Assembly: GCF_008831285.2 (NCBI RefSeq)
Contig: NC_045148.1
Location: 1,054,001-1,118,000 of the forward strand
Origin: Nymphaea colorata
Lineage: Eukaryota > Streptophyta > Magnoliopsida > Nymphaeales > Nymphaeaceae
Direction: 5' to 3'
Length of the DNA stretch: 64,000 bases
The translations under genes and the position numbers were made by a program. The notes beneath the pieces were generated by a model. That model worked only from the letters and a program-made list of their open reading frames with translations, was not told where the DNA came from and did not search any database. Positions 5,451-58,721 of this stretch are shown in pieces (the stretch's first letter is position 1; each line of letters opens with the position of its first letter).

Positions 5451-5608
5451 AGAGGTTAGTTTAAGTTTAAGTTTAAATTCCTTAAGAATTGGAGCTTGAG
5501 AGATGAGTGTGTGGAAGTCATTTGCGAAGGTTGGAGCTATCAAGCCTTAGGGTGTGCCTTCATCCGTGTTCTATCCAAGCTTGAGGTTACTCGCAGCAAA
5601 CTTTCAGC

Positions 5609-7252
5609 TTGGAAGCTTGGAATAATCTGCATTACGGGAATATTCCCCAAAAAATTGACTCCCTTCATAAAGAGCTTAATGTTGTTCAAGCAAGAATGGA
5701 TAGTGGGGACTTATCCTTATCTGGCCTTGAGTATTGCATCAGACTTGAGTTGCAAGCTACTTTAAAGGAAGAAGAGCTGCTTTGGGCCCAAAAAGCCAAA
5801 ATTAATTGGCTGAAAAATGGCGATCGTAACACAAAATTTTATCAACAGGTTGCATCAGAGAGAAAATCTAGGCAGTCTCTTTCTACTATATTTGTGGGGG
5901 ACCTTACCATTGAGGCTCAAGACCAGATCAATGATGAATGTACCAAATTCTTTAAGGCGCTTCTTTGTGAAGATGCTGCCACTGGTTCTATGTTTGATCA
6001 TTTAAGCCCTAGTCCTATTGTTTCTAGGGAAGAAAATTTAGAGCTCCTTGCTCTTATCTCAGACTCAGAAATCAAACATGCAGTCTTTAGTTCTAAGGCT
6101 GATAGTGTTCTAGGACCTGACGGCTTCTCGGCTTTCTTCTACCAATGCTATTGGCACATTGTTCGAGACGATGTCACCAGGGCGATTAAGGAATTCTTTG
6201 AAACAGGTCGACTAGTCAAGAAGATCAACAGATCCATTCTAGTGCTTATCCCTAAGCATCAAGGCACTTGCTCGCCGCAAGACTTCAGGCCGATTGCGCT
6301 CTGTAACTCTCTTTATAAATTCATCACCAGTCATTTGCTTCCGTATGAGACCTATTCTGGCCAGAATTATTGCAGATTCACAAGGAGCCTTTACCAAGGG
6401 CAGAAAATTACATGATCAGGTTGCCATGGCTCACGAGGTTGTAAATTTCATGTTTGTCCATTATGTCCTGTCTGTGTGCTACCAATTGGACTTATCAAAG
6501 GCCTATGATCGAGTGAACTGGAATTTTCTTAGAAACTCCCTTCTCTCGCTGGGCTTTCATGATACTTGGATTGCACGCATTATGACATGCATCTCAATAG
6601 TTTCAATTGCGATTTTAGTCAATGTGTGGTGAGTCAATACTTTCATAACTCTCGTGGCCTCAGACAAGGTGATCCAATGTCACCACTCCTCTTGATTGGT
6701 ATCATGGAGTGTCTCCATAGGCGTATTCTGCATAGTGTAAACACGAATAAGCTTTGCGGGCCAACTATACCAAGGGTCGAGAAAGCGCCTGTGGAACTAT
6801 TCTTTGCTTATGATATAATTTTCTTCCTCCCACTTAAAGTGAAGTTTCTTCAAGAAATTAAAGGTATTATGAGTGATTTCGAAATGAAATCTGGTATGAA
6901 AGTTAATGATGCTAAGTTGAGAATAGTAACTTTCAATGCCCATGAAGACTTGAGCAACATGGTTGTGGCCTCTCTTCCTCTTAATTACCTGGGGCTTCCC
7001 CTTTTTATTGGAAAATTTAGCCCATATCTTTGCCAACCCCTTATTACGGAAGCTCAAAGGAAGCTGGCAGCATGGAAGGCCTCGCTACTATCTTATGCGG
7101 GTAGACTCTGCTTACTTCAATCCTCTTTTATACCTCCAATATTTTTTTGGTGTTCCCCCTTCAAACTTTCGAAAAAGATTATTCAGGTTCTCGTGCCCCT
7201 TGCAGCTAATTTTTATGGGCCTCTAACCTTGGACGCCGCAAACAACATTTAG
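5609..7252 (+). pseudogene. LINE reverse transcriptase, frameshifted and catalytically altered
   Basis: Shows the conserved L1 reverse transcriptase blocks in order: WLKNGDRNTKFYQ, GPDGFSAFFYQCYW, the LIPK and DFRPIALCN blocks, QGAFTKGRKLHDQV, the catalytic A block DLSKAYDRVNW (about 6490-6520), and RGLRQGDPMSPLL (about 6654-6693). The second catalytic block, normally FADD, reads FAYD (about 6803-6814), so one of the two metal-binding aspartates is lost. Frames change near 6340 and 6600. Together these show a long-dead element. Confidence 0.88.
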
Positions 7253-42847: not shown

Positions 42848-45400
42848 ATGGCATCTATTCCATCTTCCTCCACGCTGGTATAGATTTCTTATCCTTATCC
42901 TTATTCTATCAACCTCTCCAACTTTGTTTCTCTTAAGCTACGACCAGAAAACTTTCTCTTATGAAAGACACAGATTCTCGCTCTTATTGAAAGCCAAGAT
43001 CTTCAAGGCTTTCTCACCGGAGATGTTGCTGCTTCTGCTGAATTCGTCATTAATGCATTCGTCATTGATGCAGTTGATCCCTTAGGCCAGAAAAAGACTC
43101 TTAATCCCCAGTTCACAGCTTGGAAGAAATCAAATGGCCTCCACATTGACCGAAAGTGCTCTTGGTTGAGTTGTTGGTCAAGAGCCATCAAGGGACATTT
43201 GGAGCTCTCTTATGGATGCCTACTCTGGCAAGTCAAGAGAAAGAAAGCTTCATCTAACTCATTTGCTTATGTCTCTCAAAAAGGGTGATGACTTTGTTGA
43301 TGAATATATTAACAAATCCAAAGCAGTTTGTGATGACCTTGCTGCCATTGGGAAACCTATTGGTTGCTCTAAAGACTTGGTGATGGATATGAAGCCTTTG
43401 TCGCTGCCATGATTCGACCTCCTGCTCCATCCTATAAAGAAGTTGTCCCACTCCTTCAAAGTTTTGACACTCGCCTCAAAGGTCCCACGCCCCCTCTTAT
43501 GGCTATGGTAAACCAACGTCAACCAAACCATAGTCATGGTCGAAGCAAATGTTTCATCTCAGACTTCTACGGATTCTATCGCTAGTCCTGTGAGAACCAT
43601 GACCACCAGATCTATGGTGGGGACATATAAGCCTAATCCAAGGTATGCTAATATTCATATCTTATATGGGAACATTCTCAAAGAACCCACTAATGTTAAT
43701 CAAGTTTTGCATCACGCTGGATGGAAGAAAGCTATGGACGATGAGATGAAGGCTCTCATTGAAAATAGAACTTGGGTTTTAGTTCGTTATGACCACATGA
43801 TGAACTTGGTAGGATCCAAATGAGTGTTTAAAACCAAGTTAAAATCCGACGTGACCCTAGACAAACTGAAGGCCAAACTTGTTGCTCGGGGATTCTCTCA
43901 AAAGGAGGGAATAGATTTTCATGAGACATTTTCTTCGGTTGTGCGACAAACCACGGTTTGAATGGTTATCACTGTTGCTCTTGTAAAAGGATGGGCTCTC
44001 ATGCAGTTGGATATTAAAAATGCTTTCTTGCATGGGATGATTCGTGAAGACGTGTACATGCGGCCAGGGGCGGAGGGAGGGGGGCGCCCGCTCGGGCCAT
44101 AGCCCGGGTGAGCCCAGGAAAAAAAAAATTACATTGAAAAAATCAAATTTTTTTAGTTTGGCCCGACCGATCGCTCCTCATCGCTCCTTTTGGCCCGATC
44201 CTGGCCCAGCTCGCAAATTGTCTTGGCCCAACCCTAAAAAAAATCCTGGCTCCGCCCCTGCATGCGACAACCCCCTAGATACATAGATGAATCCAAACCT
44301 GATCCTGTCTGTAAATTATAGCGAGCTTTATATGGTTTGAAGCAAGCGTCACGAGCTTGGTATGCCAGGTTAAGTACTTTTCTCCTTGATTATGAGTTTT
44401 CTATCAGTTTTGCTAATCCCTCCATGTTCACCTTCCATCAAGCACCTGTTACTTTCATACTTTTCATATATGTTGATGATATGATTCTTATGGGAAGCTG
44501 TGCTTTAGCATTGCACAAAATTGTTGATACTTTCTACAGTGAGTTTCTTGTTAAGAATTTTGGTCGCCTAACTTATTTTTTAGGGGTTGAAGTTGCCTGG
44601 ACAAATCTGGGCCTCATACTTTGTCAAACAAAGTATGCAAAGGATATTTTGGAAAACGCTAAGATGGAAGACTCTAAGCCTTGTAACACTCCCATGAGTA
44701 CAAAAATACATAAACTACAAGCAGAAGATAAGTCTTTTGACGATGTTACCCTTTATAGGCAAATTGTTGGTTCACTTCAGTATCTTTGTCTTACTCATCC
44801 GAACATCTCGTTTGCTGTCAATTACATCAGCCAGTTTATGCGACTAAATTGCGGAGTAAATAAGGCTCTAAATGAGGTATTTCATTAGTGATTCTTTCAG
44901 GTCCTTGGCTTGTCACATGAGTCTAAATTTCATATTTCCGGATATGAAAAGAAGTATAAGCCCTGTTACACTCTCACTTTCAAATGATTAAACATTTTCT
45001 GCGTTATGTGAAAAGAACTCTACATTTTGGACTTCAAATTTTGAAGCAAAGTACCTTGGATATATATGCCTTTTTAGATTCTGATTGGGCAGGTTGCTCC
45101 CATACCAGACGCTCAACCACCGGTTTCTGTATATACCTTGGTGTTAATTGCATTACTTGGAGTGCCAAGAAACAAAATACTGTTTCTCGATCCAGTGCTG
45201 AGGCTGAGTACCGTGCCATGGCATCGATGACAGCAGAGCTTACATGGGTTCAGTTCCTAATGAAAGACATAGGGATTCGAATAGATAAGGCTCCCGTGCT
45301 ATATTGTGATAATAAAAGTTCCCTCTTTATGGCAGTGAACCTTGTGGCTCATGGAAGAAGCAAGCACATTCAAACTAGATGGTGCTTCAACCTTCATATC
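42848..45400 (+). mobile_element. Ty1/copia retrotransposon remnant, internally deleted
   Basis: Gag starts at 42848 (stop after 11 codons) with NLSNFVSLKLRPENFLL and IESQDLQGFLTGDV, then LHLTHLLMSLKKGDDFVDEY (from 43256), typical copia gag. At about 43540 it passes straight into the pre-RT segment (RTMTTRSMVGTYKPNPRY, GWKKAMDDEMKALIENRTWV). Zinc knuckle, protease and integrase are therefore missing. The reverse transcriptase has [46 protein letters not shown], intact YVDD in FILFIYVDDMILMG, and the RNase H blocks DSDWAG and SSAEAEYRAMA, ending KHIQTR at about 45380. In-frame stops, a nested element (44065-44260) and an insertion of roughly 120 bp near 44850-44980 make it inactive. LTRs were not found. 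Confidence 0.9.
44065..44260 (+). mobile_element. Short hAT-like element nested in the copia reverse transcriptase
   Basis: Ends CAGGGGCGGAG and CTCCGCCCCTG are exact 11-bp inverted repeats. Flanks CATGCGGC (44057-44064) and CATGCGAC (44261-44268) are a 7-of-8 match, the 8-bp target duplication of hAT elements. Removing the element and one flank restores the copia frame VYMRQPPRYIDES, so both borders are exact. It belongs to the same family as 10792-10984, in opposite orientation. Confidence 0.9.
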
Positions 45401-46940
45401 TTTTTCTTCTTTTTCATATGGTTAAAATGTTTTACAGAAGCATGAGCATTATTCCTTACATAAACCAAAATTCGGCGCACTTCCTAAGCTGGGGAGTACA
45501 TTTGTATAGCTAATTTAATGCTGCTTGCGTGAGGCTTCAGAACTAAATTGATTTATCTTCAGCGACAGAAAGAACTACAAAATTAGGCCTAGTGCAAGTT
45601 GAGAGACGCAAAAAGGCTACCTCATTTTAAACGCCAGTGACGCGAGATTCATCTCAGGGCTCAAAGTTGGTTGACTTGTGTCTTGACAGCCTGAATTAGG
45701 TCCACAAGTGGAACTTGGTTGTCACGACACCTTCATTTTTATATGCGAACTCCCTCTACATATATTTTCCAGTATGGAATATTATATTAGTTATTCATAA
45801 TATAGTATACGTGGTGCACATAATAATGTAAAATGCGTCATTCAGGTTCATCTTTTAGCAATACGTCCACTGTGGTTGCCTTAGTAGCTATCTTCTATTC
45901 AAGTTTTGGCATAGCTAGGGTAGTCTCATGTGCTTTAACCAAAAGCATTGCTTAAAGACGCGGCAGCCTAATTAATGAGACCAGTATTCTTGAATCTTAT
46001 TTAGGCCGCTATAAATTTTAATTTGACCCGTTTATCAAAGATTGGAAGTTTGATATCTAAGTGCCAGGAAAGTGAGGCATACTCCAATTTTGTCTTCTTC
46101 ATGGCGACGTATGATGGTCATGGAGATTATGAGCTAATAAGCATCGGATCAGTAATGGTGAGTAGGTGAGAAGTTGCAGCGTTTTCATACAAGCTAAGCA
46201 GCCATCTCTTTGGAATTGCAAATTGGCTAACATATGACTCTGCATTTTTCACTTAGGACCATCAATGAAGTTTTGTATATTATAATGAATTATATAGTGA
46301 ACGTGGTAAGATCCACTTCATTTAGTTACAAACAGAACCATGAATTTACGAAAAAATTGCAACGGGTACAAGTTTTGTTTCTCATGTGCGAACACATATT
46401 CCATGTCACTGTTCCCCATTTCTCCAAGACCTTGTAACACAATTATATAGGGAATGGGAACGGGAAGTCCACTGTAACATTAATTAGCCATGTGAGAATC
46501 AGATCCTCAATATGGAAGACATAAAGTTGGATTCCTAGAGTCAGATTCTCAAATCTACAAACCACTGAGTTCTTTCTCAAACAAACATTTATGAAACCAA
46601 ATTGGCAGTAGAAATGGTGCGTTAAAAAGACTCACGATTAGACAAAGACACACATTTCAAGCTATAAAATTATAATTTAAGGCCTAAAACTCCACTTCCG
46701 AGTATGCTTCCCACATGCAAGAGCGCATCTTTGCACCCAAATTGAGAGGCATTGCTAGGAGTGGCTCTTCTGCTTATGTTCTTACAACAACAAGCGGGAA
46801 AGCTTAACAGAGACAGCTAAAGGTGAAAAGATTATGTATGGCTCACCATGTGTATGGTTGTGAAAGCAATGCTGCATATGGCTTTGCACAATATATAAAA
46901 GCCAGACAGCAACAGCCATCATCAATGACACAGTTGTCTT
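45401..46940. other. Intergenic DNA and zinc-transporter 3' flank
   Basis: No supported genes. The last 200 bp before 46941 are probably 3' UTR of the transporter on the minus strand. Confidence 0.5.
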
Positions 46941-48122
46941 CTAACGCTCAACTTGAATGGTCACATGGGTGATGCTGTGTTCTCTCTGAATGTAAGCAAT
47001 GACATTGTTGAGGACAGCGTCTGCGTCTGCCTCTGGTTTGATCTTCACATGGCATGACATGAGAATCTTCCCCACCGTGATGGCCCAAACATGGAGCTCA
47101 TGAACGGCGACCACCTCCTCCATGTCAAGGATCCCCCTCTCTAGCCTCCCTGCGTCGACTTCTCTCGGCGTGCTCTCCATCAGCACTTCCAGGATGCTCA
47201 TCAGCATCCGAATCGTCGTTGCCAGAACGACCAGCGAGAAGAAGAGGGTGCAGATGAGATCGACGATCCGCAGTTCGGGCTTGAACCAGATGATGGCACC
47301 GCCGATCATCACCCCAACGCTCTGAATCGAATCTCCGATGACATGAAGATAGGCACTCTGAACATTCACATTCCTCCTCCTCCTCTTCTTATTTTTCGGT
47401 TTCTCTGTAGCAGCACCTACAGATTTCACTCTCCTCGATCTATGGGGATCTTCCTCAGGCTCAGGGTGGTGGTTGTCCCCTCCTTCCTCATTATCATGAT
47501 CATGATTATGGCCATGGCCGTGAGCGTCATGACTATGACCATGGTCATGTCCATGGCCATGACCATGGCTGTGTCCTAACAAGAAAGTCATGACCAGATT
47601 CACAACCAAGCCTACTGCAGCAATAACGAACATCAAAAGGCCATGAACCTCTGCGTTTCCGTGTATGAGCCTGTATATGGCCTCATAGACCAGGATGCCG
47701 GTGATGAGCCAAATGAGCTGTATGGAGACCAAGGTGCCTAGAATCTCCACCCGGAAAAAGCCGTAGCTCCGGCGGTGGGTGGCCTCCCAGCTGGAAGCCC
47801 AGAGGGAGAAGAGGGAGATGCCGAAGGCAACGACGTCGGACAGCAGGTGGGCGGCGTCGGTTAGGATGGCGAGGCTGTTGGCCTTGATCCCTCCGGCGAC
47901 TTCTGCTCCCATGAAGACGAGGCAAAGGACCATGGCCATCCAGAGCTTCCTCGCGGCGGTGGACCGCTCGCTAGCGTGTTTGGAACGGCTGTGGCTGTCG
48001 GAGAAGCCGCACCTCGCACCACCACAGGCCTGCTTGCTGACCTCCTTGCCCGGCGCGGCCAGCGGAAGGTCATCTGTCGACATCTCGAGTATGTGAACTT
48101 CGTGGGAGGTTGATGACTCCAT
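46941..48122 (-). CDS. MTP1: CDF zinc transporter, MTP1-type (vacuolar metal tolerance protein)
   Basis: MTP1-class proteins are Zn2+/H+ antiporters of the vacuolar membrane that store excess zinc. The gene is a single 393-codon exon, as usual for this group. Six hydrophobic segments are seen (about residues 60-78, 88-108, 124-148, 160-182, 258-278, 284-308). The two zinc-site HxxxD motifs are intact: HLLSD (His92, Asp96) in the second segment and HVIGD (His260, Asp264) in the fifth. The cytosolic loop between segments 4 and 5 (184-219) is His-rich, mostly [12 protein letters not shown]-type repeats, the hallmark of MTP1 and a sensor/buffer for zinc. A cytosolic C-terminal domain has HELHVWAI and ends HVTIQVER. 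The N-terminus has a Cys-rich patch (CGGARCGF). GC content is higher than the flanks. Start at 48122 gives the expected length. MTP1 versus MTP2/3/4 is by similarity and the His loop. Confidence 0.95.
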
Positions 48123-49886
48123 TCTGAATCTCTGATCGTCTGCACTATCTACCTGCTAGAGAGAGAAAGAGAGATGTCAATGTTAAATTGCAGACTGTGG
48201 ATGCCATATAACTGCAAGGTCTTTGGAATTGCATTGGTTTTGCTCACCCCTTAGGTCCAAATGTTTAATATGATTACACATTTTCGAGGCAAAATAGACC
48301 AATAGGCTACCACTTACGACTATCAGTCTTTTCTATAAGCACAAGATCGATCTAATGTTCTTCTCACGCTAGAAAGGATATTCCTCTCTCCTGTTAAGTA
48401 CACAAGAATTCCATGATCACTACCTTCTCTTTCACACCACCTTTGCGCCTGCGGATCTTACGCCATGATAAGAGCGATTAAGTCTGGTGTTTCAGGTAAA
48501 CTGGCTATGAAGTATCCATCTTTACAAACTGGGATTGTATATAAGCAGTACCGAGCATGAGGATGAAGATGAGTTCCAGAGTGCAAGAGTAGGTGATAGA
48601 GTCTCCATACCAAAGCCAGCTATTTTCTTATTGAGAAATTGAAAAGGCGAAACTGAATTGGCTGGGCCAACCACAATAAAGAGTAGGTGACAGCACGAAA
48701 TTATTATTGGCACATGAGCCCACGAAAGAATCACAACCCCAGTGAACCAAAAACGGCTCTGCCCTCCCTTGGTTGGATGAGTATATAGTTTATTCATTAA
48801 ATATAATAATACGCCAACTTGGGCATTAATGCTGGATTAATTACGGGTGATGAATGACATCGTCACTTATATTTCGAACGAGTCCTCCTTTTGGATTTTT
48901 CAACCATATTGTCAACATCATTTTTCATAATGAGAAGTACCATTTAACTATGAACTCAGAAAATGGCATCGGTTTTTTCCGGTTTCTCAATATGGGCTCG
49001 AGTTATTGGTGCCAAGAATGAGCTGATGGTGATTTCTTCACTTTTACCTTCTAGGAAGAAGCTCTACTCAGCTAAGTGATATCAACAGTTACATCCGTTT
49101 TTTTCAGCTGAAAGTACTTTTCAGAAAATTACGAAAACTGTAAGTTTCAAGTCAGATAGTTAAAGCTTAGAGTCTTTATTCCTCTAGCTGATATCAAAGT
49201 TGGTTGGCCTCGTACCAAGAAATTCATAAATGACACACCTTTCAAAGATTATGAAAACTCAGTAGGCCAGTAAAAGCAGAAACTTCCTCCCAAAGAAAAA
49301 AAAAAGGCCTGCAGATCTTTCACGTGAAAGGGCAAAGTATTAAATAATAAACAGACTACACTAGATTGCATAGTCGACTCTAATCCACTCATCGCTAATT
49401 TCTGCACTTCTAAAAACAACCCTTCTAAAAACAACCTTCAGGCCAAGATTTACTGAGCAGATGGAGCCAAGGAGGTCACTGCAGGCCCCTTGATTTTCGA
49501 ACAAGTAATCTAAAAACATATCTACTTGTCTTTTTTTTAGCTATCCTTCAATTAAAAATTTTACATACAGGAGGCACCTAATTTCCACTTTAGTTTTTTC
49601 ATTTTTTTTCCCCTTTTGTCTCCGCCACTGCCCATGAAAATGACTGCAAATCAAATCTAGTTTCGTGTATGTGTACGCATGCATGAAGTTGTAAAAGGAC
49701 CTTGAAGTTTCGGGTATGCTTCAAAAAGCATATGGCTAGTTTCACATCATTTTCTTTTTCTTTTCAAATCACAAAGAAAGTCTCCGACAATAGGAAAAGG
49801 AAATCCAATGAATGTACCGGCTTTTTGTGGGAAAAGATGACAAAAAAAAAGGTATATAGGACAATTGAACGGCTCTTGCTATTTGG
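48123..49886. other. Upstream region of the zinc transporter and intergenic DNA
   Basis: The GA-rich strand near 48158-48172 is probably transporter leader. No further genes supported. CTCCGCCACTGCCC near 49620 resembles the end of a CAGGGGCGGA-type element, but no partner end is clear. Confidence 0.45.
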
Positions 49887-56400: not shown

Positions 56401-58131
56401 GTAGAGAGAGAGCCACCCCCATGGGGTCAAACTAGATGCAATCTACCCATTTGAAGGAGACAAAGCGTCTCACCACACATTTATTTGAGAAAAGCAAGAG
56501 AAGGCCTTACATGCATGTGGTAAAAATATCCAACCCTGGGGGGCTGGACAAAAGGACAGTAGACATTTGTAAGGCAATAAAAACAGTGCAATAATATTAA
56601 TATTTAAGCGGGTCGAAATAACAAAAGGAGAATCCAATGCTCGATGGGCATATATCAGACAAATTTCTTGACAACGTTGAGAGGGCGGGACAGGCCAACG
56701 GAATCATTCCAGGAAGATGACAATGAAGTACGGCCACAAAGAGCAGAAGAATTAGAGAAGAAGAGGCCAAAGACAAGTTGACAGACAGAAAGGTACCGAT
56801 TAATAAAAAACTATATCAACCAATTGAAATTTGAATGAATGAAACACAAACGCATATACAATGGAGATGTGGACTAGAAGTCTAAAAAAACTGAAGGGAA
56901 CTTCAGTTACAGGCATGAGCTCATTCTTCAAAATTAATGCTTGAACAAACTCGCATGATAAGTTCAGGAAGATACATAAGAGAGAAATGGTAGCTCGCAA
57001 GCTGATCAAAAGCTCAAGAAAAGGTAGTTCGTTTGCGAAGTTATTATGCATCCACGGCCTTAGGTTTACATGTTAGCTGACATGGAGTTAATACTGCGCT
57101 TCTTATTATTGAAAGATCGTCCTTCGCTTTGTAACAACTATTAGTCCTATCTAGAATAATTTCATAGCTCGGTTTTTCAGATGGTTTTTCTTTTGGAGAC
57201 TAACTAAAAAGGATGCGACGAGTCTCGTTTCCAAACATTTACGCAGGTTTTAGAAGAAAAACGTATGATATCGAAAGCGATCAAGACCTAAGGTCGGCCA
57301 CCTCAAGCCAATAACATTGTATACGATGAACTTCCGTCAATGCAAGGTCCGAATATCTATAGAATCTTAAATACGGCAGACCTTGCGGGGCACAGAGAGA
57401 GAGAGAGAAAGTATGCTTTCAACATTACACATGTAATGCCTCCGTTGGAGGGACGTATATAAAGGTAAAAGCAAGCAAGATGATCCGCTCTAGCACATGA
57501 AACCAGTAAACCACGGGGCCATTAAATCACCCGTTAGATTCTTGCTTCAAACATCACTGAAGGAACTCCAACATGTCTCATTTACAGGGACAATTTCATC
57601 CAGTAGGCTCTGCAGAGAACATTGGATATAACAGGTAAAGCTTATATATGATCTGAGAGCTAGAGGTCTCAAGACCTTAATGTAGTAGAGATAGAGAGTT
57701 TAATTCCCCATATGCATTTGGATATAGTTTTGTAGAAACTCATCTTGACAGAAACATAAGAAAAGGAGAAAAATTCTTCTACAGTGTAATACATACAAGA
57801 GAAAAGGTCCTGATATAAAAGGACAATTAAGCACCATCCCATATATACTTTGCAAAATATTTTGAAGTGAACTAAAAATGCATATACAAATTCCACAAAC
57901 GACAATAGAGCCTGTCTTTGTTAACAATATGATAAAAAAAAACCACGTACAATGAGAAAAGAAGCGATCGAGGTACTCAAGCTCATCCAAGTTGATCCAG
58001 GAATGAGGAAAAGAAAATGAAAAGGAAACGAAAAGGAGTAAGTTGGTGCTTTCTTGAAAGATTAAAGCAGCCAGTCACGGATGATAAAAGAGAATAAAAG
58101 AACAGATCAACAAGAGAAAGAGTCTTAGAGA
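53486..58131. other. Long intergenic region
   Basis: No supported genes. Segments near 53790-54000 (GATTTC/GGATTTCAAT repeats, palindromic in part) and 56050-56390 look like inactive short elements, but I could not define their ends. The part from about 57300 to 58131 is downstream of, and possibly within, the 3' part of the miR159 primary transcript. Confidence 0.45.
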
Positions 58132-58318
58132 TTCGGAGCGTAGAGCTCCCTTCAATCCAAAAAAGGGTCGGAATAAGAAGGCGGTACGGCTCCTCCAACA
58201 TGCAATCCACCAGTGCTATCTCCCATCTGCAAGGAGGAGATAGTACAGTGGAATCCATGATCGAGCAGCTGTGTTCACCTTCTAAAACCCACTTTTGGAC
58301 AGAAAGGAGCTCTCCCAC
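58132..58318 (-). ncRNA. MIR159: MIR159 microRNA precursor hairpin
   Basis: The minus strand at 58161-58141 is the miR159a mature sequence (TTTGGATTGAAGGGAGCTCT plus a final A). The other arm, 58312-58292, reads GAGCTCCTTTCTGTCCAAAA (plus G) and pairs as the star strand. The flanks also pair: GAGTGGGAGAGCTCC opposite GGAGCTCTACGCTC at the base, ATGGATTCCAC opposite its partner GTGGATTGCAT in the upper stem, and CTATCTCC opposite GGGAGATAG around a loop of about 11 bases. A hairpin of about 187 nt with the mature strand in the 3' arm, and a long upper stem, is what MIR159 genes show. Known role of the family: in complex with ARGONAUTE1, miR159 cuts GAMYB-type MYB mRNAs, affecting anther, seed and vegetative growth. 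It is not miR319, which has GACTG and ends CTCCC. Confidence 0.96.
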
Positions 58319-58711
58319 TCTCTCTTGTCACCACCGAGAAACTTGCGCAGTGGAGCAGGAAAGAAGGAGTTTCCCGACCGTGGAAACAAAGAGGACGAAG
58401 ATAAAATATGGGAGCGACGAACGATAATGAAAAATGACCACTACAAAGAAAGAGAGATCTCGAGCAACCGACCAAAATCTCAGAAACGAAGAACGAAGAA
58501 GACAAGATGGTCAAACACCAACAAAGATTTGTCGCAGGATGGACAGGAAATACAATAACAATTCATCAGGTTGGCCAACGGAACACCAGCAACAACAGTC
58601 GGCGGCCATCATAGCCAGGAAGATGGAAAAGAAATTGAAGGCCTTGAGCTCGTGTTGGAGGAGACGAAGGGATGGACTCATCCCTAGAACGAGAGGTGGG
58701 GAACAAGGACG

Positions 58712-58721
58712 CTTATATAGA
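58712..58721 (-). promoter_or_regulatory. TATA box of the MIR159 gene
   Basis: The minus strand reads CTATATAAGC, a near-ideal plant TATA box. A start about 30 bp downstream would fall near 58680-58690, giving a leader of about 370 nt before the hairpin base at 58318, a normal pri-miRNA arrangement. No open frame of note occurs in that leader. Confidence 0.7.

Follow-up and report, generated by a model that had tools for sequence, protein, structure and literature searches.

A long foldback in the genome of the water lily Nymphaea colorata raises two questions: is it a gene of the MIR159 family, and is this copy one that works? MIR159 genes are found across land plants, and their small RNA holds down certain MYB regulator genes. 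We analysed a stretch of 64,000 nucleotides (C11:1054001-1118000; hereafter the window), in which a preliminary description had proposed a complete MIR159 locus on the minus strand.

Fold and sequence of the hairpin

The features considered here are the following:

58132..58318, minus strand: MIR159 precursor hairpin, from fold energy and RF00638 match
58141..58161, minus strand: mature miR159a in the 3' arm, an exact 21-nt match with 19/21 bases paired in the fold
58292..58312, minus strand: miR159 star, 21 nt, from the predicted fold with a 2-nt 3' overhang assumed
58245..58270, minus strand: loop-proximal conserved block of the 5' arm (alignment columns 49-74; 21/26 columns identical in three copies)
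58189..58213, minus strand: loop-proximal conserved block of the 3' arm (alignment columns 106-130; 18/25 columns identical in three copies)
58711..58720, minus strand: TATA-like box CTATATAAGC, a possible promoter element, from its sequence motif

The coordinates of the conserved blocks were obtained by counting columns, the window row being free of gaps. Three lines of evidence bear on the identity of the hairpin: firstly, the minus strand of 58132-58318 is predicted to form a single long unbranched hairpin with a minimum free energy of -93.5 kcal/mol (z -8.86; none of 200 shuffles was equally stable), so that the stable foldback expected here was recovered, with a terminal loop of 10 nt in place of the 11 bases claimed; secondly, the Rfam model RF00638 (MIR159) matches the minus strand from 58324 to 58129 with 109.7 bits, against a gathering cut-off of 74 bits, and does so over model positions 1-196 of 196; thirdly, the exact 21-nt miR159a described earlier does lie at 58141-58161 on the minus strand, as the sole site in the window within 3 mismatches (chance expectation 0.01; a match in 1 of 100 shuffles of the window). 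The fold sets the star strand at 58292-58312, at the 130 nt from the mature strand that had been described, and the 21 mature letters occur in published miR159 papers. MicroRNA genes always escape protein scans; Rfam detects this locus at once.

The plus strand of the hairpin also stands just at the RF00638 cut-off (74.1 bits vs 74). Matches on both strands were found at 9 of the 11 RF00638 loci in the genome, the antisense match, which is devoid of the mature letters, always scoring lower, and we read the plus-strand match as the probable mirror image of a hairpin that is almost symmetrical, not as a second gene. A 14-nt inverted repeat (93%) links the leader at 58653-58666 to the upper 3' arm of the hairpin at 58187-58200; we considered it as a meaningful element and took it for chance.

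MIR159 and MIR319-type hairpins in the genome

A search of the 407.8-Mb assembly (783 contigs) with RF00638, in which 34 of 75,495 candidates were scored, yielded 20 rows that fall at 11 places; the lowest-scoring rows are below the gathering cut-off. By their mature strand, three of these loci are MIR159: the window copy, a copy at C11:16.97 Mb with the identical 21 nt, and a copy at C2:3.19 Mb with G as its final base. At C13:9438604-9438793 (L023; 9.438 Mb), next to a MIR319-type hairpin, lies a MIR159-like one whose mature strand is the variant CTTGGATTGAAGGGGGCTCCG. The remaining loci are of MIR319 type, including one at C2:5.20 Mb that matches only in part, and the mature strand of the MIR319-type loci, CTTGGACTGAAGGGAGCTCCC, differs from miR159a at 4 of 21 positions.

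Conservation among the three MIR159 copies is concentrated in two duplexes: identical columns make up 20/21 of the mature strand, 15/21 of the star and 21/26 and 18/25 of the loop-proximal blocks, as against 6/21 and 4/27 in the spacers and 5/31 at the top. In its star strand the window copy is distinct in sequence from both of the others. Of the pairs predicted for these three hairpins, 14/63 have changed on both sides with pairing kept, and the proportion was 34/59 when four relatives (three that are linked or variant, and an unlinked MIR319 type) were added to make seven sequences; both counts lean towards the predicted structures, because the structures were predicted from the same sequences. 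At a further 10/63 pairs one copy of the three has lost the pairing, which weighs against a canonical working gene. By BLASTN, the window matches the C11:16.97 Mb copy in the hairpin alone (70% over 58140-58316), and no similarity to the other MIR159 copies was found outside the hairpin; at E 1e-4 the window hairpin and the C2 copy gave no match, which also counts against that reading.

Arabidopsis MIR159c is reported to be poorly processed (PMC3118147; PMC2988730), and with two other MIR159 copies that could suffice, the window copy might be a similarly silent or poorly processed one, kept by recent descent while the others do the work. We consider this improbable: in sequence the window copy stands far from even its nearest paralogue, with nothing alignable outside the hairpin, yet its mature strand is still exact and it has kept both duplexes as well as pairs with compensatory changes, and such retention in a diverged copy would need selection over the time of divergence. 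Moreover, the window locus is of type 1, whereas MIR159c is assigned to type 4 (PMC3118147). We hold it highly probable that the minus strand instead carries a canonical MIR159 gene, one that probably works and whose transcription, processing and cleavage of targets we infer.

That a MIR319 gene was caught by the MIR159 model is hardly credible. RF00638 does match MIR319-type hairpins in this genome as well, but the mature strand of the window is exactly miR159a, four differences away from that of the MIR319-type loci, and this settles the matter by sequence. The locus has the mature identity and 3'-arm position of MIR159, a covariance-model score above the cut-off and predicted complementary sites in GAMYB-like genes, and it does not carry the miR319-type mature strand that defines MIR319. 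Its identity as MIR159 is near certain, and the original reading as a MIR159 precursor is borne out by sequence, fold, arm, strand, covariation with two paralogues and matching target genes.

Surroundings of the window copy and linked pairs elsewhere

A 111-codon open reading frame with a GTG start (57983-58318) covers the hairpin, as the preliminary description had noted in calling it meaningless, and it has no Pfam match. A protein-coding exon, for which this frame would speak, or a chance inverted repeat can be dismissed as vanishingly improbable, since neither that frame nor the 56-codon leader frame nor the overlapping plus-strand frame matched Pfam, and the hairpin has a full-length Rfam match and a z of -8.86. 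A peptide encoded by the leader (miPEP) was likewise rejected, the 56-codon frame having neither a Pfam match nor similarity to the other copies, which is found nowhere outside the hairpin.

A TATA box had been placed about 390 bp upstream. The TATA-like CTATATAAGC is present (58720-58711) and starts about 401 nt before the hairpin. The minus strand of the window has CTATAWAW at a frequency of 0.078 per kb and the less strict TATAWAW at 1.3 per kb, so that CTATATAAGC is no more than suggestive of a TATA box. In the 800 nt preceding each of the other two MIR159 hairpins, the sole TATAWA word lay 52 nt from the C2 hairpin. The leader and TATA box of the window copy are not common to the other MIR159 copies, a point against a canonical working gene, and the "complete locus" of the earlier account stands for the hairpin only.

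We compared the window and 9 kb beyond it with 19.8 kb of C11 and 29.7 kb of C2, and the window only with 9.9 kb of C13. The hairpin matches C11; otherwise only short matches were seen, which we take to be repeats. A neighbourhood common to the MIR159 copies was rejected, as no shared genes were found in the short stretches compared. A 404-codon open frame at 46941-48155 on the minus strand belongs by Pfam to the cation efflux (zinc transporter) family. It has relatives on C8, C9, C10, C11 (11.04 Mb) and C758 (14 matches), the pieces at C11:11.04 Mb being 83-84% identical, and none of the 14 matches lies near C2:3.19 Mb or C11:16.97 Mb. The window also holds open reading frames at 44322-45445, presumably the reverse transcriptase and RNase H of a Copia-type retrotransposon, and at 5585-7252, which we take to be a LINE-type reverse transcriptase.

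Elsewhere in the genome, hairpins of MIR159 and MIR319 type lie in pairs, the members of a pair sharing a strand. They are separated by 16.8 kb on C2 (3188101 and 3204863; L007, L010), by 8.7 kb on C11 (16971422 and 16980111; L004, L012) and by 8.1 kb on C13 (9446723 and 9438604; L003, L023). When 11 loci were placed at random in 200,000 trials, two neighbours within 17 kb arose in 1 and three in 0; this excludes chance placement only, and later tandem duplication is compatible with it. Because the C2 and C11 pairs have the same order and strand and their hairpins are 78% and 82% alike, the two probably go back to the duplication of a single pair; on C13 the order is reversed.

By contrast with these pairs, the window copy is solitary, the nearest other RF00638 locus on its contig lying 14.97 Mb away (with 34 of 75,495 candidates scored, weak remnants may escape). 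We also looked for a MIR319 partner beside it and rejected one: when the window was scanned with Rfam at a permissive threshold (E up to 1), the MIR159 hairpin appeared on both strands, and the only other matches were three to different miRNA families, all of which fell short of their gathering scores. It is conceivable, and on balance unlikely, that the three linked pairs are the remnant of a local duplication that founded both families, and the window copy an old solitary MIR159 whose MIR319 neighbour was lost or never present. Linked pairs of this kind could be of use in dating the divergence of MIR159 and MIR319; we found no earlier report of linked MIR159/MIR319 genes in the accessible text of the literature, including PMC8386757, PMC4233070 and PMC4434875, a search outside which most subscription journals lie.

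Predicted targets and comparison with known precursors

The genome was searched for the target-site pattern with up to 2 mismatches, the reversed pattern serving as control, and sites were scored on a mismatch scale of our own. The pattern occurred at 20 places, comprising the 11 RF00638 hairpins and 9 other sites, all 9 of which were examined; the count of non-hairpin sites, only 9 compared with 5 for the reversed pattern, weighs against a canonical working gene. GAMYB genes had been named as the targets of miR159, and three GAMYB-like genes here do carry in-frame complementary sites in a long exon, at C1:36.07 Mb (3.5), C1:25.20 Mb (3.5) and C11:6.76 Mb (4.5). In each of the three, the exon upstream of the long one contains two MYB repeats by Pfam, which recognises nothing in the long, site-bearing exon itself. 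A further site at C12:14.99 Mb (3.5) is in frame inside a MYB repeat of a gene that we take, from its MYB letters, to be DUO1-like; none of the papers returned by a literature search for this label contained the letters sought.

The other 5 of the 9 sites lie outside recognised MYB frames. Two of them, with scores of 3.5 and 2.0, equal or surpass the MYB sites, so that a good score is not enough to define a target. The best of all non-hairpin sites (C13:559833, L048, site at 1434; score 2.0) is one of these, and could be chance or another target.

What the analysis shows is the hairpin, its duplex geometry, the family match, the covariation between copies and the presence of complementary genes in the same genome. 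By analogy with the family, the primary transcript would be made by RNA polymerase II, perhaps driven by the TATA box at 58720, and DCL1 would cut its long hairpin in successive steps that start at the loop and end at the base, a direction of processing known for the MIR159/319 family (PMC3118147). The lowest duplex would then yield miR159a (58141-58161), which would guide Argonaute to GAMYB-like, and perhaps DUO1-like, MYB mRNAs and so repress them.

The locus is one more copy of a plant microRNA gene that ranks among the best studied, in a species for which 92 miRNAs are reported from small-RNA data (PMC11548254), and it places an intact miR159-GAMYB pairing near the base of the flowering plants. 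Such a pairing is expected in a water lily, since according to a review lycopods, ferns, conifers and Amborella have it (PMC6724108).

Set against known systems, the locus shares with MIR319, known for its TCP targets (PMC8386757), a long related hairpin that the same model RF00638 matches, and is distinguished from it by its miR159a mature strand. Like the MIR159 family, it has predicted GAMYB-like target genes in the same genome. It most resembles the type 1 'bi-duplex' MIR159/319 precursors (RF00638; PMC3118147) in its exact 3'-arm mature strand, long unbranched stem and two conserved duplexes. Type 1 is defined by strands that lie over 60 nt apart, two further conserved blocks and an extended branchless stem (PMC3118147, Table 1), and the window hairpin has 130 nt, blocks with 21/26 and 18/25 identical columns and an unbranched fold; its 5'-arm block (58245..58270) resembles ACR5 and its 3'-arm block (58189..58213) ACR3 of the family as described there. 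The type 1 pattern is recorded for 226 genes and 5 candidates from 71 species (PMC3118147), and nested duplexes for 82 of 88 MIR159 genes (PMC9361848). The window locus is an ordinary, well-formed member of a thoroughly known family: it shows no difference of kind from type 1 MIR159/319 precursors, and what is peculiar to it is its spacers and loop.
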